From Planctomycetota bacterium (GTDB lineage: Bacteria; Planctomycetota; Phycisphaerae; Phycisphaerales; SM1A02), in contig JAAERN010000001.1 of NCBI GenBank assembly GCA_024230295.1, positions 1-64,000 on the forward strand: a stretch of 64,000 nt of DNA, written 5' to 3'. Every line of letters starts with the position of its first letter. The stretch's first letter is position 1. Below the pieces are notes generated by a model, which worked only from the letters and a program-made list of their open reading frames with translations, searched no databases and had not been told where the DNA came from. Of the stretch, positions 14,732 through 25,201 are shown in pieces. The translations under genes and the position numbers were made by a program.

Positions 14732-17236
14732 TCAGTCGCCGCAACCAAACTCAGCGATAGTCGCCAGAAGGTCGTCGACGTCGTATGTGCTTCCGAATCC
14801 GTTGATGATCGCGAGGATGTCATCGACGTCGACATCACCGTCGCCGTCCAAGTCATTCTCGCATCCGCTTTCGCACTCATCAGGGACCCCGTTGCCATTG
14901 GAGTCTTCGCTGGACCCATTGGCAATGTCGCAGGAGTCCGGATTGCCGTTGAGATTGCAGTCAAGCTCACCGTTGTAGGTGATCGTTGTCGAGGCAGTGT
15001 CCTGCCATGTGACGTTGACGCCATCGCGACCTTGGAAGAGCGCCTCGAAGAGAACCTCCGAGGAGTGCTCCATGGTTGTGAGACGGGCAATCAAGACACC
15101 ATTGAGGATGGCGCAGTCGCTGTTTGTGAAGGAAGCGCCATCGCCCTGGGCATCGGTCGGCAGGCAGAACCATGTTCCGTTGCCAGCGCTCAGGGTTCCA
15201 CCAGCTTCGAAGTCGGCCCAATCGATACCGATGTTGTTGAGGGCGTTTTCGCCATACGGGTTGCCCGAAGAATCCAGGCAGCCGATGGTGACGCGACTGT
15301 CCCACTCCAGATCAGGAGCGAGCGGGAAGAAGTCAGGATTGACTTCCTGGCTTGTTGGACCGCCATACCCATCCTGATAGAAGCTGGTCGAAGAAGCGAC
15401 CGTTTTCTGCTGCAGGCTGTTGCCTGCGACAGCATCGAGCCGCCAACCGTCGGGAAGTTCTGCGTATACGTCAACCGTGTAGCAGGACTCGCCAGTTGAG
15501 AGCAGATCAGTGCCGACCACGCTCCAACGGATGTTGAGGTCGCCAGATCCGCAGGGGTTGCCAGAGCAGTCGCTGCCGTCACCGAGGTACGAGCCGCCTG
15601 CATCGCTGCATTCAGTCGAGGTGTACTCGGCGCAGCTTACGCCGATGCAGCAACCGCCGGTCGGATCGGGAGCGCACGGGTCATTGGAGCAGTCCGTGTC
15701 GTCGCCGAGGTAGGTGCCAGTGCAAAGCGCTTCTGTTGTGACTGAGCAAGTCGTATCGACGCAGCAACCACCTGTTGGGGTGGGATCGGCACAGTTGACC
15801 GTTCCGCACGTCTGGCCGGGTTGCCAGTCGCCACCCGCGTTGGTGCAGGAGGGCTCGGAGACCGTATAGCAACTGCCGTTGAGGCAGCAGACGCCACCGT
15901 TGCCGCTGCCGTCGTACGGATTGAGTGTGTTCAAGAAAGTCGAGCCAGTTCCCGCGGGATCGAGGTACGAACTCATCATGTTCCATGACAGATAGAGCGA
16001 CTTTCCGTAGTAGTCATCATCATCATTCGTGCAGAATGCGTTTCCGCAGCACAACGCGCCGATGACCTGATGGCTGCTGTTGAAGAGGCCCGAGCCCGAG
16101 GAACCGTAGTAGGTGCGGCCCTCGTCCCAATTGATGCCCCAGTACTGGCCGTTGGTATATGAATTTTGCACGGAGGAGATCCGCTTCTCGGCCGTATTTG
16201 GATGGTGAATACAAACTCCATTCGAAGCGCCCGAGTTGGAGCGATTCCATCCGGCGAAGGTGATTTCCCAGTCAGGATTCGGATCGTTGGTCAGGCGAAT
16301 CAGGCAGAAGTCCGTCGTACTGTTGCTCGTCAGATAGGTCGAGCCTGACGTAGTGCTGTTGTAGTTGCCATTTCCGTTGTTGCCGCTGGAGCCCCCTGTC
16401 CGGCAGTAACTGTTCTGGTGATTCCAATACACCACGATCGATTGGTCATTGCCGGCCGAGATTCCACAGTGATCCGCTGTGAGGAAGTAGGGGGTTTGAT
16501 CTTCGTTGCTGTTGTTGAGCATCGTGCCTGAGCATGTCCACTGGCCATTGAGGGTGTAGACGCCCGCAGCAGGAATCTCATCCCACCAGTCATCACCGAG
16601 TGGGCACTCGACGTCAATGTTGCAACTCTCAGAAGATCCGCGAGTGTGACCTTTCCATTTTTCGGGAGCGCCTAGTCCGCGGTAGCCTTCGTTGATTGCA
16701 CTAATGGAAAAGCCATCGATGAAGGCTTGGCGATCGTCGGAATCGACCGACGCTTCGATGACGACTTCTTCGCCATGAATCACGCGGGTCCAGTACTCGC
16801 CACTGGCCGGATTATCCTGTGACGTCAATGTATTCATGACATCGAGACCGTCTACGGAATAGATCGTGAGTTCGGCTGAGTCAGGCAATTCGAATGTGCC
16901 GAAGCCAAAGTTGATGTGATAGGCACCCGGCGAGAGGACTCGGAGCCTCCACATCATTCTGCCGTCTGGCAGAAACTCCCAAGTGCCGCGGTCTAAAGGG
17001 GAGACCTCGACCTCGTTCGCAACGGCGAAGCGGGGCACGAGGCTGAGTTCGTTGCGGCGAAGATCGTCCTCATCCAGCCACTCATAATTGGGGCCAGCCA
17101 GTTCGATGAGTTCAACAACATCGGTGGGGAGATGCCCTTGGTCAAGACCCCAAGTCGAGGCTTGAGCACATGTAGCACTTGCGAGGCCAGCGGCTACAGC
17201 CACCGCCTTGAAGGACGTATACGATCGTTGACGCAT
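14732..17236 (-). CDS. Secreted lysyl-endopeptidase-like serine protease with dockerin-like tail
   Basis: 834 residues from the ATG at 17236 (GAGGAG six bases upstream; the longer frame adds 16 residues). Signal peptide MRQRSYTS...ATCAQAS. Residues ~27-185 are a beta-rich pro- or binding domain. The S1-type protease domain (~190-420) has all three catalytic positions: His256 in TADHCG, Asp309 in TTDFCL, Ser380 in GSSGSG, with IVVYWNHQNSYCR as in Achromobacter protease I-type enzymes. Three six-cysteine repeats follow (15551-15898), then the ~170-residue domain shared with the VCBS protein, a NPDSCDIA/GNGVPDECE calcium linker, and a dockerin-like tail (DLDGDGDVDVDD) ending FGCGD. Lys-X cleavage is inferred from family only. 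A paralogue lies immediately upstream. Confidence 0.88.
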   Translation of the reverse strand: MRQRSYTSFKAVAVAAGLASATCAQASTWGLDQGHLPTDVVELIELAGPNYEWLDEDDLRRNELSLVPRFAVANEVEVSPLDRGTWEFLPDGRMMWRLRVLSPGAYHINFGFGTFELPDSAELTIYSVDGLDVMNTLTSQDNPASGEYWTRVIHGEEVVIEASVDSDDRQAFIDGFSISAINEGYRGLGAPEKWKGHTRGSSESCNIDVECPLGDDWWDEIPAAGVYTLNGQWTCSGTMLNNSNEDQTPYFLTADHCGISAGNDQSIVVYWNHQNSYCRTGGSSGNNGNGNYNSTTSGSTYLTSNSTTDFCLIRLTNDPNPDWEITFAGWNRSNSGASNGVCIHHPNTAEKRISSVQNSYTNGQYWGINWDEGRTYYGSSGSGLFNSSHQVIGALCCGNAFCTNDDDDYYGKSLYLSWNMMSSYLDPAGTGSTFLNTLNPYDGSGNGGVCCLNGSCYTVSEPSCTNAGGDWQPGQTCGTVNCADPTPTGGCCVDTTCSVTTEALCTGTYLGDDTDCSNDPCAPDPTGGCCIGVSCAEYTSTECSDAGGSYLGDGSDCSGNPCGSGDLNIRWSVVGTDLLSTGESCYTVDVYAELPDGWRLDAVAGNSLQQKTVASSTSFYQDGYGGPTSQEVNPDFFPLAPDLEWDSRVTIGCLDSSGNPYGENALNNIGIDWADFEAGGTLSAGNGTWFCLPTDAQGDGASFTNSDCAILNGVLIARLTTMEHSSEVLFEALFQGRDGVNVTWQDTASTTITYNGELDCNLNGNPDSCDIANGSSEDSNGNGVPDECESGCENDLDGDGDVDVDDILAIINGFGSTYDVDDLLATIAEFGCGD
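14975..15535 (-). other. Unnamed ~170-residue domain, copy 2 (C-terminal in protease 1)
   Basis: Encodes the segment from LNIRWSVVGTDLL through VTWQDTAST. It is near-identical in pattern to copy 3 in the paralogue and clearly similar to copy 1 in the VCBS protein (GIDWADFEAGG, NGTWFCLPTDAQGDG). Confidence 0.6.
15551..15898 (-). repeat. Three six-cysteine protein repeats in protease 1
   Basis: Consensus by eye: G-x-C-C-x(3-6)-C-x(6-8)-C-x(3)-G-G-x-[YW]-x-x-G-[DQ]-x-x-x-C-x(3-4)-C, six cysteines per ~37 residues. One example begins GGCCVDTTCSV and closes near YLGDDTDCSNDPC. Confidence 0.75.
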
Positions 17237-17438
17237 TGGTTTCTCCTCTATGCGGTCCGCAGAGACTTCGTAAGGGTTCCACATGTACGGTCCGTGTCAA
17301 CATGAAGTCCGTGGACTAAGAAAATCGGTTCCAAAACGTCCGAGATTCTATCGGAAACTGGCCATTTTCTCTGTGATCGGCTCCTGGTGGGAGGAACGAT
17401 GTTGGATTCTGCGGAGGTTGATTGAGCGAGCGTGGGGG

Positions 17439-20381
17439 TCAGCCGCCGCAGCCGAACTCGGCCAGCAAGCCGAGGAGGTCATTGACCTCGTAATGCTCCG
17501 GATACCCCGCGATCAATTCCAGCAGATCGTTGATGCTGGTCATGCCGTCGCCATCGAGGTCCCATTCGCAGCCACTTTCGCACTCGTCCGGGACGCCGTT
17601 CCCGTTGTCGTCGTCGCTCTCGCCGCTCGCGATGTCACACGCATCTGGATTGAGGTTGCCGTTGCAATCCTTCTCGCCCATGTATTTGATATACGTGCTG
17701 GCGGTGTCCTGCCACACGAGATCATCGTTGTCGCGACCCTGGAACAACGCTTCGAACAGGATCTCGGAGGTGTGCTCCATTGTGGTGAGCCGCGCGATCA
17801 GAACACCACTGTGATCATTACACACGCTGTCGGTGAAGGTTGCGCTTGCGCCCTGCGGATCGGTGACGAGGCAGAACCACGTGCCATTGTCGGCACTCAG
17901 ATCTCCGCCGGCTTCGAAGTCTGTCCAGTCGATGCCAATGTTATTGAGCGCATTCTCACCGTACGGATCTCCAGAAGCATCCAGACATCCGATCGTGACG
18001 CGGCTGTCCCACCTGAGGTCTGGGGCGAGTGGGTAGAAGTCGGGATTGACCTGTGCTGACGTCGGACCGCCGTAGGTGTCCTGATAGAAAGACGTCGTTG
18101 TTGCAATAGTCTTCTGTTGCAGTAAGTTTCCCGCGACGGCGTCGAGCCGCCAGTCTCCTGGAATCTGCGCATAGATATCGACGGTATAGGATGGATCGCC
18201 GGTAGAGAGCAGGTCTGTTCCGATGACTTTCCATCGGATCTTGACATGGTCACCGTTGTCGGTATCGCAGGGGTTATCTGTGCAGTCAGTTTCATCACCG
18301 AGGTAGTTGCCTCCGGTGGCTTCGCAGTCGGTCTCGGTTCCGACCTCGCAATTGCCGCTCAGGCAGCAGGCTCCGACAACCGGCGCGTCGCAGGGGTTGC
18401 CAAAGCAATCGGTGTCATCGCCGAGGTACGTGCCTCCATTCAAGGCACAATCTGCCACTGATCTGACTTCGCACGAGATGCCGAGGCAACATCCGCCAGT
18501 GGGATCGAAGGTTCCCGAGTAGGTCACATTGAGCGTTCCAGCGCCGGTGCCACCTTGCCAACCGCCCAATCGAATCCAATAGGTCTGGGCACTTGTGACC
18601 TCGATGCCGAGAATTTCGCTGTGGTACGACTGGCACGCCGAGTTCTCCTCGCCATCCCCATTGCATGAGATTTGCACGAGGTTATCGCAGGATGTGCCTT
18701 CATAGAGCACCATCGATGTGTCATAGGAGTTGGAGTCACACGTGTCCAGATTGAGCGTTCCAACGCCCGGCGACTGCCATTTGAACCAGTGGTCCGGGCT
18801 GTTGTCCCAGTCCAAGAATGTGTTCGTGCATTGTGATTCGTCCGGGTCTCCAAATTCACTGTCGGAGGCGTCGGTCGTATCAAACGCATTGGCGCCAGCA
18901 GCAGCGACGATGGATGTATTGCAAGTGTCACCATTGAACGGATTGCAAGGATCGCCTGCACACGTCACGTAATCACCCAGATACGTTCCGCCGAGAAGCA
19001 GACACTCGTGTTCTGGGATATATGAACACTCTTCTGCGAAGCAGCATCCACCCTTAGGATCGTCTGATCCAGCCGGGACCAGCGTGTCGATGCCGTTCGG
19101 ATTGGATCCGTCTGGATCGAGATAGCTTCCAAGCACCGACCAGGCTCCAGCAAAACTGCGGCCGTAATAATCATCGTCGTCGTTATAGCAATAGGCATCG
19201 CCACAGCAGAGCTGCCCGATTGCGCGGTGATTGGAATCGAATAGGGGCGAGCCGTTCGAGCCCTGCGCCGTTCTGCCTTCAGCCCAGTTGACTCGCCAGT
19301 ATTGACCTTCGTTGGCGGTCACATCCGGGAAGCTAATACGTTTATCGGCGGCCTCGGGATGGTGGATGCCGGCGCCATTCTCTGCGGAATCCAATCTCGA
19401 CCATCCGGCGAAGGCGACGCCCCACGAGACATCGGGACTCGTGTTCAGTTGCACCAAGGTGGCGTCGTGCTGGCCGTTGCTCTTGAGATACGTCGTGCCG
19501 CTGCTGTACTGAGAAAAATCACCGTCGCCACTGCTACCGCTGTCATCGTCCCCTGGCGTTCGGCAGTAGGAGTTTTCGTGATTCCAGTAGATGACGACCG
19601 ACTGATCATTGTTCGAACGAATACCACAATGATTCGCTGTCATGAATAATGGTCGCTGGTCGCCGAGCGTGTTGTTTACCATGAAGCCAGTGCAGGCCCA
19701 ATACCCCTGTACGGTGTAGACACCGACCGAGGCGATTTCATCCCGCCATGCGTCGCCTTCCGGACAGGCAGTGTCGATGTTGCAGGACTCCGAACTGCCC
19801 CGCACTCCGCCGCCAAAGCCGCGGAAGCCTTCGTTGATTGCTGTGAGAAGGACGCCGGATTGGAATGCAGGTTGATCTACGGGGTCAAGTGTGGCTTCGA
19901 TGACGACTTCGTCGCCATGAACAATTCTGGACCAGTAGCCACCAACCGCGTTCCGGTCCACCGATGTCAGCGGCCCGAGGATATCGCCGCCATCGAGGCT
20001 ATAGATGTGTACGACCGCGGAACGGGGGAGATCGAACTGCTCGAACCCGAAGTTGAGGTGCGCTGCTCCCTCTGAGAGCACCCTGAGTCGCCACATCACA
20101 TCGCCATTTGGAAGCCATTCCCAGGTGCCATCGTGGGAGGGGGTAAGGGATACGGTGTTGGGCTCGGCAAAGGTTGGGGGGAGACCTTGTTCATTCCGGC
20201 GAATATCTCGGGCTTCAATGGCCGAGTAGTCGGGACCGGGGAGTTCGATCAGTTGGATAGCATCAAGTGGGAGATTTCCCCCCGTCAGTCCATAGGGCAG
20301 CGATGCCGCGGCAATGCCACAACAGGTCACGGATCCGACGACCAAGCAGGCCGCGGTTGCGACCGATCTCAATGGTGTCAT
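17439..20381 (-). CDS. Secreted lysyl-endopeptidase paralogue lacking the catalytic serine
   Basis: 980 residues from the ATG at 20381 (GAGGAGAG ~11 bases upstream; 16 more codons are possible). Signal peptide MTPLRSVATA...GIAAAS. The architecture parallels its downstream neighbour: N-terminal beta domain, S1-like domain, Cys-rich repeats, shared ~170-residue domain, calcium linker, dockerin-like tail ending FGCGG. His251 (TANHCG) and Asp306 (HDATLV) are kept, but the nucleophile position reads GSNGSP: Asn376, codon AAC at 19254-19256. This predicts a catalytically dead protease, perhaps a binder or inhibitor. Between its first and second Cys repeats it carries an extra ~140-residue pre-peptidase C-terminal (PPC)-like beta-sandwich (about 18520-18940: SPDHWFKWQSPG, YDTSMVLYEG, YWIRLGG) missing from the neighbour. 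The intergenic gap of 202 bases shows no clear terminator. Confidence 0.85.
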   Translation of the reverse strand: MTPLRSVATAACLVVGSVTCCGIAAASLPYGLTGGNLPLDAIQLIELPGPDYSAIEARDIRRNEQGLPPTFAEPNTVSLTPSHDGTWEWLPNGDVMWRLRVLSEGAAHLNFGFEQFDLPRSAVVHIYSLDGGDILGPLTSVDRNAVGGYWSRIVHGDEVVIEATLDPVDQPAFQSGVLLTAINEGFRGFGGGVRGSSESCNIDTACPEGDAWRDEIASVGVYTVQGYWACTGFMVNNTLGDQRPLFMTANHCGIRSNNDQSVVIYWNHENSYCRTPGDDDSGSSGDGDFSQYSSGTTYLKSNGQHDATLVQLNTSPDVSWGVAFAGWSRLDSAENGAGIHHPEAADKRISFPDVTANEGQYWRVNWAEGRTAQGSNGSPLFDSNHRAIGQLCCGDAYCYNDDDDYYGRSFAGAWSVLGSYLDPDGSNPNGIDTLVPAGSDDPKGGCCFAEECSYIPEHECLLLGGTYLGDYVTCAGDPCNPFNGDTCNTSIVAAAGANAFDTTDASDSEFGDPDESQCTNTFLDWDNSPDHWFKWQSPGVGTLNLDTCDSNSYDTSMVLYEGTSCDNLVQISCNGDGEENSACQSYHSEILGIEVTSAQTYWIRLGGWQGGTGAGTLNVTYSGTFDPTGGCCLGISCEVRSVADCALNGGTYLGDDTDCFGNPCDAPVVGACCLSGNCEVGTETDCEATGGNYLGDETDCTDNPCDTDNGDHVKIRWKVIGTDLLSTGDPSYTVDIYAQIPGDWRLDAVAGNLLQQKTIATTTSFYQDTYGGPTSAQVNPDFYPLAPDLRWDSRVTIGCLDASGDPYGENALNNIGIDWTDFEAGGDLSADNGTWFCLVTDPQGASATFTDSVCNDHSGVLIARLTTMEHTSEILFEALFQGRDNDDLVWQDTASTYIKYMGEKDCNGNLNPDACDIASGESDDDNGNGVPDECESGCEWDLDGDGMTSINDLLELIAGYPEHYEVNDLLGLLAEFGCGG
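17690..18245 (-). other. Unnamed ~170-residue domain, copy 3 (C-terminal in protease 2)
   Basis: Encodes VKIRWKVIGTDLL through LVWQDTAST. It is highly similar to copy 2, including LQQKTIATTTSFYQD, LAPDLRWDSRVTIG and NGTWFCLVTDPQG. Confidence 0.6.
18267..18497 (-). repeat. Two six-cysteine protein repeats in protease 2
   Basis: Adjacent repeats of the same type as at 15551-15898 (GGCCLGISCEV... and GACCLSGNCEV...). A further single repeat of this type lies at 18946-19055 (GGCCFAEECSY...), on the other side of the PPC-like domain. Confidence 0.75.
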
Positions 20382-20891
20382 CCTCAGATCTCTCCTCGAG
20401 TACCCACCCCAATGCCCCAATGGGTTCAATCCTACCGTGGATTGTGCGGGTCATGACTCAGGGTTCGCCTCGCTGCACCCAAAGGATGCCACCAAGGCGG
20501 AGGATTGCGAAGAAGATTCGCTCAGCATATTCCGCTCAGAGCCCTCCTAGTCGCTACAGGGCGATCAGTCCCCTTGCTGATTAGTGGTTTTCGGGCACCG
20601 GCCACGGGAGGATCAGGGGTCTTGGTTTCGTGGGGAGGTCCGCTTTTGATGAGATATCGGTACATCGCATTGCAGAACTAGCAGGGGCGCTCAATTGTGG
20701 ACAGGCACCTAAGTCGGAAACCGCTTGATGGCCCCTGCAGCCTGCCCCAGGCGCTGTTGGTGATACTCGTTTGATTCCAGTCCCTCCGCGATGGGGCACG
20801 AGCTCGACGTTCCTACTGAAATTTTAGAGATTGGCCTAGGCAGCCCCCATGCGCTACCCGGTGCCTCCTCCCGGTGCAGTAGTCTTCCGCC
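20382..20891. other. 510-base gene-free stretch between divergent genes
   Basis: It separates the protease pair (minus) from the inositol monophosphatase gene (plus). No reading frame here looks like a protein. The only structure I see is the long hairpin at 20681-20738. Promoters for both flanking genes should lie here, but I cannot place them. Confidence 0.5.
20681..20738. other. Structured 58-nt element, possible cis-regulatory or small RNA
   Basis: GCAGGGGC (20681-20688) pairs perfectly with GCCCCTGC (20731-20738). Inside, TCAA pairs with TTGA and GTGG with CCGC, and the tip holds AGG-CA-CCT. It is too short and has the wrong internal layout for a tRNA; no T-run follows on either strand. 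Class unknown. Confidence 0.3.
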
Positions 20892-21677: not shown

Positions 21678-22973
21678 TCAAGGATGGATCATTCGCTGTC
21701 TCATCGCTTTATTGGCAGTCGAACGTCCGACGATCTTTTGAAGTTGCCGGTATGTCTTGTGGTCTATCGTCTCTTGACGGGCGTCGAGCCTTTTGAGGTG
21801 GTCCAAGGTCTTGGACGTGTCCGCCCAGCTCGGATCGAGTTCTGCGCGGGCTTGGGATCCAACCGCCGCCAGTTCCTCGTGCCCGTCAATCTTGAGCAGG
21901 ATTGCAATCTGTGAGGTTCGTAGCGTCTTCATCTGATCTGCATGATTCTTCTGGAGGTCCTCGACCTCTTTGCGATCATCTACAGCCTCCGCCAAGCAGT
22001 ACTCAAGTGCACGCTCGACTTTGGTTGGTCGAAAACGATCAGGAAATCCCATTCGCATGGCGAGATCGCGAATCTGTTCTCCTCTTGCCCCTCCCATGCG
22101 CTGGCACATCAGGTTGAGGTGCTTGAGCGTGCAATCCCGCACGTCGCGACGTATCACCAGGAGGGCCACTTGCTGGCGGGCGTCTGGGCGGGGAACGGCC
22201 GAATGGTCATGCTGGCTTCGAGTTTTCAACGCAACGTCAATTTCATGTCGCCACTCGCGCATCACGGGTTCAACGAGCGAGAGCTCTTCGGGCGACATGT
22301 TTGGATGAATCCGGAGGATGACCGTGTCAAGGTTGAGATGTTCGCCACCGAGATGGCCGGCTCGGAGGAGCCAGCGTCTTGTGAATTTCCGAGTCAGTGC
22401 TGCCCAGCGATCTTGCTGCTCCGGTGTGAGCAGAAGGCGTACATCGCCTTCAAACTGTTCGATCAGTGACATTGAATTTCTATCGAATGTCTTTGAAGTG
22501 CGATCGATGTACTCAGGATCTGCCTGAAAGAGCCGCATTCTTGAGTCGCCGGCTGCTCTGGCCTGCTCCAGCAGATCCGTACGTGAGGCCTTCGCAGCGA
22601 GGAGTTGCTCGTGCAGGTTCGGGGCCTCTCGTTTGTCGGCAGTCTTGATCGCTTCCTCAAGCTGACTCACCGCCCGGGTCGCTTCTGCCGAGGCCTTGGC
22701 GGCTTCTTGATACGCGTGCCGCGCAGCCTGAATGGCCTCGGCGTCTTTGGATGTATTCTGGCCAAGTTCGACCGAGTACCCATCCAATAGCCGCATCCAC
22801 TGTCTGGCAAAGTCGTCTACGAGTTGGAGAACGATGTATTTCTGGTCTGCGAGATCAAGCTCAAGGTGTTCGATGATGATGGCGGCGTCGGCAGGTGTGT
22901 AGGGCGGTGCATTGATCGGCGTGGGAGCACGCCCTGCGGTCGCGACAAGCAGGATGAAAACGAGTGGATTCAT
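21678..22973 (-). CDS. Exported helical protein of unknown function
   Basis: 431 residues from the ATG at 22973 (MNPLVFILLVATAGRA, a plausible short signal peptide). The frame runs 87 codons further upstream, but that part has no signal and crosses the start of the divergent STAS gene. The mature part is almost all helix: residues ~60-140 are Ala/Glu/Lys-rich coiled coil (QLEEAIKTADKREAPNLHEQL), and LLTPEQQDRWAAL near residue 180 resembles the LTPEQ motif of Spy/CpxP-like periplasmic proteins. I recognise no enzyme motif. Residues ~310-370 (MGFPDRFRPTKVERALEYC) resemble part of the truncated gene at 1-906. It is convergent with the inositol monophosphatase gene, 18 bases apart. Confidence 0.65.
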   Translation of the reverse strand: MNPLVFILLVATAGRAPTPINAPPYTPADAAIIIEHLELDLADQKYIVLQLVDDFARQWMRLLDGYSVELGQNTSKDAEAIQAARHAYQEAAKASAEATRAVSQLEEAIKTADKREAPNLHEQLLAAKASRTDLLEQARAAGDSRMRLFQADPEYIDRTSKTFDRNSMSLIEQFEGDVRLLLTPEQQDRWAALTRKFTRRWLLRAGHLGGEHLNLDTVILRIHPNMSPEELSLVEPVMREWRHEIDVALKTRSQHDHSAVPRPDARQQVALLVIRRDVRDCTLKHLNLMCQRMGGARGEQIRDLAMRMGFPDRFRPTKVERALEYCLAEAVDDRKEVEDLQKNHADQMKTLRTSQIAILLKIDGHEELAAVGSQARAELDPSWADTSKTLDHLKRLDARQETIDHKTYRQLQKIVGRSTANKAMRQRMIHP

Positions 22974-23042
22974 CGCTGGAGTATAGGCGGATTCGCATAT
23001 GCCCAGACTCTCAGTTGATGCTGCGCACAGCGGAGAATTCGC

Positions 23043-23070
23043 TTGACTTGGAACCAACAACGGATATCTT
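23043..23070 (+). promoter_or_regulatory. Candidate sigma-70-type promoter for STAS gene
   Basis: TTGACT at 23043-23048, a 16-base spacer, then TATCTT at 23065-23070, about 48 bases before the STAS start codon. Five of six and four of six matches to the housekeeping consensus; planctomycete promoters are poorly known, so this is tentative. Confidence 0.3.
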
Positions 23071-23118
23071 CGATTTGGCGTCGCGTCACGGGGGCGCGGG
23101 GCCGAGGGGAGTTGGTCG

Positions 23119-23466
23119 ATGCAGTTGGCACATCTAAGCGTCGGAGCGTGGCCTGCGTGGGCTGAAGTCACACGACTTGGGGCTGTGCTGAAAGTGCGGT
23201 GCTTGCCGTGCGACTTCGTAGAACCAGATCGCATTCAACGCTTTCATCGACTTGTGCAGCGAGAGATCAACTCGGGCGCAGATCGTATTGAACTTGATCT
23301 GACGCTCAGCGAAATCGCCGATACGAAGCTTGTCGCTTTGCTCGTTCTGGCGCATCGGAGGGCTCGGCGTCAAGGTGTCGAGCTTCGCGTGAATGCATCC
23401 GACCATATTCGTTCGCTCGTGGCGATCTGCCGATGCCAAGGGCTGCTCATAGAGCCGGTCGCCTAA
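23119..23466 (+). CDS. STAS-domain protein (anti-anti-sigma factor-like)
   Basis: 115 residues, ATG preceded by GGGGAG eight bases upstream. After ~30 residues the pattern strand (RIELDLT), short loop (IADTKL), helix (VALLVLAHRRARRQG), strand (VELRVNA), helix (IRSLVAICRCQGL) is that of a single STAS domain as in SpoIIAA/RsbV. In those proteins a Ser following Asp at the start of the central helix is phosphorylated; here the same place reads D-T-K, so Thr would be the acceptor. No switch kinase (RsbW/SpoIIAB) or phosphatase gene is adjacent, so the partner is unknown. It is divergent from the exported helical protein, with a possible promoter at 23043. Confidence 0.65.
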   Translation: MQLAHLSVGAWPAWAEVTRLGAVLKVRCLPCDFVEPDRIQRFHRLVQREINSGADRIELDLTLSEIADTKLVALLVLAHRRARRQGVELRVNASDHIRSLVAICRCQGLLIEPVA

Positions 23467-24046
23467 CAGAAGGTTGCGTCGGACCTACGGAGTTGATCCG
23501 CGCGGTGCAGTATCGGAGTGTGCGATTCCGATCGTCTCGGCGCGTTCCGCCAGTGTCTCAGTGGAACGGAGGATCCTCTTGACTGAAACCTGCCATTCGG
23601 CAGCATCTTCATCGCGGCCAAGCGCAGCGGAAGCTGTTGCGCCTGCAATGGCAGCGAGGAAGTGTTCGCGGCGATAGCTCTCATTGCTGAGCGGAATGCC
23701 TGCTCCAAGGTCCGCCGCGTGCGATACTTCGGCGAGTGCTTCCTCGAAGTGGGCGATCCTTGCCAGTGCGGCGGCAAGTTTGCTGGAGCGCGGGCTGCCG
23801 ACGGGCTATTTATCTGCTTATTGAGCAACAGGCCATATAAAGAGGTAAATTGCTCGTCAGATCGAAGGTGTCATTGAATGTGCTTAGGCGGACCCTCGGT
23901 GTGACTAGTCCTCCCGCCGGGAGGGGGTAGGATGTACGTCATCCACCGAGACGCCGTTTGGGGGTGGATACCATGTGTTCCGGCTCGGGTCAGGACGCCA
24001 AATGCGTATTGGCTCGCTTGGCGCAGGCGTGGCAAGGAGGTTCTCG
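23467..24046. other. 580-base stretch with only a possible gene remnant
   Basis: This interval between the STAS and metalloprotease genes holds the minus-strand frame at 23485-23805 described separately. It also holds small hairpins near 23910-23945: CCTCCCG-C-CGGGAGG and GGATG-TACGT-CATCC, ~100 bases before the metalloprotease start. No complete gene is supported. Confidence 0.45.
23485..23805 (-). pseudogene. Possible 3' remnant of a helical/TPR-like gene
   Basis: A 107-codon open frame reads ...LAAALARIAHFEEALAEV..., then LSNESYRREHFLAAIAGA and AALGRDEDAAEWQ, ending at TAG (23485-23487). Its composition, Ala/Glu-rich helices and strong third-position G/C bias look genuinely coding, unlike the competing frames. 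Yet the frame opens after an in-frame TAG (23806-23808) and contains no ATG, GTG or TTG near its start. Either the 5' part has been lost or frameshifted, or an unusual start is used, or it is chance. Upstream DNA is AT-richer (TTTATATGG on this strand). Confidence 0.35.
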
Positions 24047-25201
24047 ATGCGGATGAGCATGATGCGATTGTTCAATCATGGCGGTGCTAGCCGATTAGGA
24101 GCCATCATTGCCGTGTGCACTTGCGGCTCACAATTACTCAATGCGGCGCCATGCGGATCTGTACCTGATCGCGACGCGAGAGAACGAATGCAGCGATACC
24201 TTGAAGATGGTCGATGGGCCGAGGCTCGCGACTATCGATGGCAGGACACCCGTGCCGGCGTCGTTCAACTTCGCGTCGCCTTCCATGTCATTCGCGAAAG
24301 CGATGGCAGCCACGGGCTCTACCAGCCGGACATGCACATCGATGAAATGCTCGAGTATGCCAATGTCAATCTAGCAGGCGCCGGTATCGAACTCGTCAAG
24401 TTCGGGGATACATTGTTTGTTGACAACAACGAGTTCTACACTGTTCGATATGACTACGGTTACAGCGACGAGGTCAATTCGCTTCGCAGTATCGATGTTG
24501 TCGACGGGGCGATCAACGTCTATATGGTTCCCGACTTTGGTTGGCCGAGCGGTATTTCCAGTTACCCATCGTCGAGTGTCCAGGGCATCGTAATGTCCAA
24601 CTATGCCATCCCATGGTATGGCGATACTACGACGTTCAGTCACGAGGTTGGCCATTACCTGCATCTCTATCACACGCATGAAACGCGCTGGTTCGACTAC
24701 GACACAGACCCACCGGAGGGCTGGTGGGGTCTTGAGTGCACCGATGGGAGCAATTGCGGTGTTGCCGGTGACTATCTGTGCGACACGCCGGCAGACCCAA
24801 AGTTAGACGAGTACACAAACGTCAACTGTGAATGGTCCGATCTCCCCGCCGATCCTTGTGGGACAGGTGTTCCCTATGCGCCCGATGAGACGAATCTCAT
24901 GAGTTACTCCAGTTCCGTTTGCAAGTCGCAGTTCTCATGCGAGCAGCTCAGTGTCATGGCGTGGTCAGCGCGAACCGAGCGGACCGACCACTTGATCGGG
25001 ACGACGACGCCCTGCCTTGGTGACATTCAAGCCGACTGCGAGCACGGCACGGCGCCGGATGGCATCGTTGATCTTTACGACTTGACTGTGGTCTTGAACA
25101 ATTGGGGAAGTGAGCACGCTCCTGCGGATATCGATGGCGATGGCACGGTTGCCATCGCCGACCTGCTGCTTGTCATGATCAACTGGGGCCCCTGCTCCTG
25201 A
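24047..25201 (+). CDS. Secreted M43-like zinc metalloprotease with dockerin-like tail
   Basis: 384 residues from ATG 24047, which has AAGGAGG at 24034-24040; the frame runs 24 codons upstream. Signal peptide follows MMRLF, ending near QLLNAAPCG. The catalytic helix is HEVGHYLHLYHTH (His199, Glu200, His203, His209), followed by GDYLCDTPADP and the Met-turn NLMSYSS, the layout of the pappalysin/cytophagalysin family M43. The usual Gly at position 8 of HExxHxxGxxH is His here. Cysteine pairs around ECTDGSNC, DLPADPCG and CKSQFSCEQ should form family-type disulfides. The last ~60 residues are dockerin-like (GIVDLYDLTVVLNNWG, DIDGDGTVAIADLL) ending NWGPCS. Predicted extracellular endopeptidase; substrate unknown. 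Confidence 0.87.
   Translation: MRMSMMRLFNHGGASRLGAIIAVCTCGSQLLNAAPCGSVPDRDARERMQRYLEDGRWAEARDYRWQDTRAGVVQLRVAFHVIRESDGSHGLYQPDMHIDEMLEYANVNLAGAGIELVKFGDTLFVDNNEFYTVRYDYGYSDEVNSLRSIDVVDGAINVYMVPDFGWPSGISSYPSSSVQGIVMSNYAIPWYGDTTTFSHEVGHYLHLYHTHETRWFDYDTDPPEGWWGLECTDGSNCGVAGDYLCDTPADPKLDEYTNVNCEWSDLPADPCGTGVPYAPDETNLMSYSSSVCKSQFSCEQLSVMAWSARTERTDHLIGTTTPCLGDIQADCEHGTAPDGIVDLYDLTVVLNNWGSEHAPADIDGDGTVAIADLLLVMINWGPCS

Follow-up and report, generated by a model that had tools for sequence, protein, structure and literature searches.

Two adjacent lysyl-endopeptidase-like genes

The window, a stretch of 64,000 nucleotides from contig JAAERN010000001.1 of an uncultured Phycisphaerales bacterium (Planctomycetota), contained two adjacent genes for lysyl-endopeptidase-like proteins, here called the upstream and the downstream copy. 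The genes and their parts were placed as follows, all on the minus strand:

17439 to 20381, minus: upstream lysyl-endopeptidase-like gene; likely start ATG at 20379 to 20381, frame open up to a TTG at 20429
20304 to 20381 (approximate), minus: signal-peptide-like N-terminus of the upstream protein, MTPLRSVATAACLVVGSVTCCGIAAAS, assessed by eye
19800 to 20300, minus: pro-region of the upstream protein; C-terminal residue Arg210 (19800 to 19802; TTG-based numbering), followed by GSSESC
19080 to 19799, minus: lysyl-endopeptidase-like domain of the upstream copy, with Asn for the nucleophile (phmmer E-values of 4e-46 against 1arb and 9e-48 against 4nsy)
19629 to 19631, minus: catalytic His (CAT), retained
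19464 to 19466, minus: catalytic Asp (GAC), retained
19254 to 19256, minus: Asn codon AAC at the position of Ser194 in Achromobacter protease I
19170 to 19172, minus: S1-pocket Asp (Asp225 in Achromobacter protease I), retained
18501 to 18935, minus: insert domain of the upstream protein, residues 499 to 643 approximately
17442 to 18251, minus: tail module of the upstream protein, with the dockerin-like motif DLDGDG at its end
14732 to 17236, minus: downstream lysyl-endopeptidase-like gene with complete His-Asp-Ser; likely start ATG at 17234 to 17236

Both frames were uninterrupted, the upstream one for 996 codons (17439 to 20429, minus strand) and the downstream one for 850 codons (14732 to 17284, minus strand), in line with an earlier note according to which the upstream gene has no stop or frameshift. 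The 2 proteins were 52% identical over residues 16 to 481. Two further lysyl-endopeptidase copies with a complete triad were identified on contigs C147 and C135 of the same genome.

The upstream product is a putatively secreted multi-domain protein that consists of a signal peptide, a pro-region, the lysyl-endopeptidase domain, Cys-rich repeats, the insert domain and the dockerin-like tail, and its precursor is presumably exported. The Arg-GSSESC sequence represents a maturation-type junction common to the orthologues of the upstream protein. The insert domain was present in all upstream orthologues, including that of genome G004, and missing from the downstream copies, while the tail module was common to many proteins in the source genome and in the genus. 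No Pfam match was obtained in the C-terminal half of the upstream protein, including the insert domain and the tail module, neither of the 2 proteins was matched in NCBIfam, and scans for promoters and terminators gave no useful signal. The tail module contained about 185 residues, followed by DCNGN..DACDIA..NGVPDECE and the dockerin-like motif, and the genomes of the genus each encode dozens of proteins that carry it.

The gene order around the protease genes agreed with that in genomes G001, G002 and G004. Two neighbouring genes were also noted: a gene at 23975 to 25201 with a dockerin-like tail and a weak match, under the Pfam cut-off, to M43-type (pappalysin-like) metallopeptidases, and a 518-codon frame at 21678 to 23234 with no Pfam match, which has relatives in the corresponding position in G001, G002 and G004.

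Replacement of the catalytic serine

The upstream protein contained the motif GSNGSP (minus strand, 19245 to 19262), in which the Asn was encoded by AAC at 19254 to 19256. Counted from the ATG at 20379 to 20381, the 3 residues at the catalytic positions were His251, Asp306 and Asn376, and the corresponding residues of the downstream protein were His256 (16469 to 16471), Asp309 (16310 to 16312) and Ser380 (TCG, 16097 to 16099, minus strand). The earlier note had reported the same residues, H-D-S/N spacings of 55/70 in the upstream and 53/71 in the downstream copy, and a Ser-bearing copy next to the Asn copy, all of which were reproduced here.

Alignment to Achromobacter protease I (lysyl endopeptidase, PDB 1arb) placed the upstream Asn opposite Ser194 with no gaps, and His57, Asp113, Asp225 and all 6 cysteines of the reference enzyme were retained. 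The S1-pocket Asp225 and the 6 cysteines, which form 3 disulfides in Achromobacter protease I, aligned in both window copies, and the protease domain of the downstream protein likewise matched 1arb (E-value 2e-46) and Lysobacter LysC. A model of the upstream domain, built from 26 sequences and with a mean pLDDT of 92.6, superposed on 1arb with a Z-score of 38.9 and an rmsd of 1.1 A over 239 residues (42% identity), and on the structure of LysC from Lysobacter enzymogenes (4nsy) with a Z-score of 39.4, which agrees with the earlier view that the fold is preserved. Other differences from these enzymes were also observed. His210 of Achromobacter protease I was replaced by Cys and Trp169 had no counterpart in either of the window copies; relative to both Achromobacter protease I and LysC, the mature N-terminus of the upstream protein was preceded by Arg rather than Lys, and a long Cys-rich and dockerin-like C-terminal half was added. 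In both window copies (19800 to 19802 and 16640 to 16642) and in their orthologues, Arg occupied the inferred boundary between the pro-region and the mature protein, and this junction, together with the Cys that replaces His210, suggests a specificity that may be other than strict Lys cleavage.

The upstream protein thereby displayed the chymotrypsin-like fold and the sequence signature of lysyl endopeptidases of the Achromobacter protease I type, but the His-Asp-Ser triad was incomplete, with His and Asp retained and Ser replaced by Asn. It is a homologue of lysyl endopeptidase that is not classed as an active member. No alternative Ser was apparent at the nucleophile position in the alignment. 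Given the mechanism of serine proteases, catalysis has very probably been lost.

Azurocidin, or heparin-binding protein (PDB 1a7s), is a natural inactive homologue of the S1 type. It was among the structural matches of the upstream model (Z-score 19.0) and likewise has an S1 fold and lost catalysis; azurocidin has an established non-catalytic role, whereas the resemblance of the upstream protein concerns fold and missing catalysis only. Prokaryotic serine protease homologues (SPHs) that lack catalytic residues have been counted previously, 42 of 966 in 91 genomes (PMC2605481), and the kind of protein observed here is therefore not new. As in the SPHs, the protease fold of the upstream protein is intact and a catalytic residue is substituted, and an essential catalytic residue is missing from an open frame. 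Searches of the open-access literature returned nothing on planctomycete members of the lysyl-endopeptidase family, nor on lysyl endopeptidases that are inactive.

Distribution of the substitution and selection on the gene

Homologues were gathered from 181 genomes belonging to the family and from 392 others sampled throughout the phylum, which after removal of duplicates gave 206 domains, 205 of them readable at the nucleophile position. Ser was present in 204 of these 205 planctomycete domains, the sole exception being the upstream Asn protein, itself included in the count; many of the domains are related and so do not represent independent trials, yet the residue is plainly near-invariant. 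The catalytic Asp was found in all surveyed domains and the catalytic His in every readable one. Side-by-side lysyl-endopeptidase genes, as counted from gene coordinates, were identified in 13 other genomes of the family (G001, G002, G008, G026, G084, G085, G086, G089, G093, G094, G174, G175 and G177), with Ser in both copies throughout. The survey of related genomes for neighbouring Asn/Ser copies that the earlier note had suggested thus returned none, and since all other tandem pairs are Ser/Ser, there is no conserved pair of an active and an inactive copy. A row of 6 lysyl-endopeptidase-like genes, all with intact Ser, was seen in a distant planctomycete (G354:C1:2334052-2346273, L218). Plasmid records contained only remote homologues, about 30% identical, and a search for a second genome of the source species found none.

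The nearest orthologues of the upstream protein were 4 proteins from the same genus with 63% to 74% identity, all with Ser, encoded by AGC in G001, AGT in G002 and G008, and TCG in G006. The upstream copies of these 4 genomes and the source genome formed one clade in the domain tree (99/96), and the source genome paired with G001 in the rpoB tree (97/95). Because G001, the closest relative, uses AGC, a single G-to-A transition from AGC to AAC is the simplest route to the Asn codon. Conservation of the inactive state among orthologues is not part of the SPH definition, but it is needed to claim a selected role, and all 4 domain-bearing orthologues had Ser. Unlike a conserved inactive lineage, the loss in the upstream protein is a singleton within an otherwise invariant family. 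Among positions invariant in 33 close homologues, the upstream protein departed uniquely at 4, which were the nucleophile and changes of V to T, V to I and E to D; the latter 3 do not suggest decay.

A codon model of the protease domain in the 5 upstream orthologues gave an omega of 0.054 on the source branch and 0.055 on the rest (p 0.95), and an omega of 1 was rejected for the source branch (p 1e-5); since synonymous sites were saturated, as indicated by the branch lengths, this shows only that most of the branch had normal constraint, and the power to detect a late change is low. With G002 as the outgroup, 26 unique substitutions in the protease domain were assigned to the source lineage and 14 to G001 (p 0.08), as compared with 35 and 40, respectively, in the C-terminal part. 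Relaxed selection on the upstream protease domain was established neither by the codon model (p 0.95) nor by the relative rates (p 0.08). The nucleophile loss looks recent because relaxed constraint was not seen on the source branch, although synonymous sites are saturated. Both analyses are compatible with a substitution near the end of the branch, and neither shows or excludes selection for a non-catalytic role. The weak excess of 26 versus 14 substitutions would point to a loss that is somewhat older.

In G004, the gene orthologous to the upstream copy (L060:8278-10143, contig C163, minus strand) was a 622-codon frame with a signal-peptide-like start followed by Cys-rich repeats, the insert domain and the tail, and contained no pro-region and no protease domain. 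The protein was 55% identical to the upstream protein over residues 448 to 996. The stretch was free of Ns, and the gene was located between an intact downstream-type gene and a gene for inositol monophosphatase, in the same order as in the window. In the rpoB tree (midpoint root, support 88/91), G004 was grouped with species whose copy keeps the domain, with the domain-bearing G008 outside, so that the pattern is more simply explained if G004 lost the domain, although the direction of change depends on this single-gene tree. The protease function of the upstream gene would then have been lost twice in different ways, by the Asn substitution in the source genome and by deletion of the domain in G004, and in both cases the C-terminal half stayed.

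Origin and fate of the Asn-bearing protein

The upstream protein is probably an enzyme that has died in this lineage only, and not an inactive partner conserved alongside its active neighbour. The reading that we favour, with some confidence, is that the nucleophile was recently lost by a single-base change and that the protein persists because its proteolysis is dispensable, with lasting selection on the C-terminal half. The ancestor would have been an active protease common to the genus, in which a putative change from AGC to AAC in the source lineage, recent relative to the divergence of the species, converted the nucleophile to Asn and should have abolished the acyl-enzyme step. The loss may have been tolerated as 3 other intact copies (the downstream copy and those on C147 and C135) are present and proteolysis by the upstream copy was presumably dispensable. 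The exported precursor would have its pro-region cut off at the Arg junction by another protease, for example the downstream neighbour, and the Asn form could do no more than accommodate a Lys or Arg side chain in its S1 pocket, leaving proteolysis to the 3 copies with full triads. The tail module probably serves to place the protein either on the cell or outside it, and would be the likeliest target of lasting selection.

According to the earlier note, the Asn form was instead selected for a non-catalytic role, such as binding substrates or the active neighbour. Its description of a kept fold, an active neighbour and, very probably, lost catalysis holds, and purifying selection on the protease domain along the source branch, as well as the intact frame, S1-pocket Asp and disulfide cysteines, would be expected of such a pseudoprotease. 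However, the purifying selection may wholly predate the change, and a recent loss accounts equally well for the uninterrupted frame and the preserved fold, since the omega of the protease domain is the same on the source branch as in the active orthologues. The proposed selection is also at odds with the restriction of Asn to one genome, with 4 orthologues having Ser and Ser/Ser in the 13 other tandem pairs, and in the other case of lost catalysis, that of G004, the whole domain was discarded and no fold was retained for binding. We consider this explanation unlikely.

Equally improbable is that the real gene encodes Ser and that the Asn reflects an error of sequencing or assembly, or a mixture of strains. 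The source is a draft genome of 180 contigs, AAC is one base from AGC, and the substitution is unique in a domain that otherwise evolves like an active one, but consensus errors of this type are rare per base, the 996-codon frame has no other sign of error, and the gene order agrees with that in 3 related genomes. That the upstream protein is still active through another nucleophile, such as one of the Ser residues that flank the Asn in GSNGSP, is highly implausible, since both flanking residues also occur beside the catalytic Ser in active homologues, the alignment has no gap, and the backbone superposes closely on 1arb.

If the favoured reading of a recent nucleophile loss is right, the event is of an ordinary kind: a dead enzyme in a single lineage, real and neatly documented. 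It is nevertheless a clean and datable case, in which a nucleophile invariant in 204 homologous domains was lost in one, beside a sister gene that is active, while in another species the same gene dropped the entire domain. It also cautions that an inactive and an active copy found in tandem in a single genome do not necessarily form a functional pair that is conserved. More tentatively, the upstream gene may be in the course of changing from a protease gene to one for a surface protein with a structural or binding function, by 2 routes within a single genus: a point mutation of the nucleophile in the source genome and loss of the whole domain in G004. If so, a transition from enzyme to non-enzyme would be visible in progress in bacteria.
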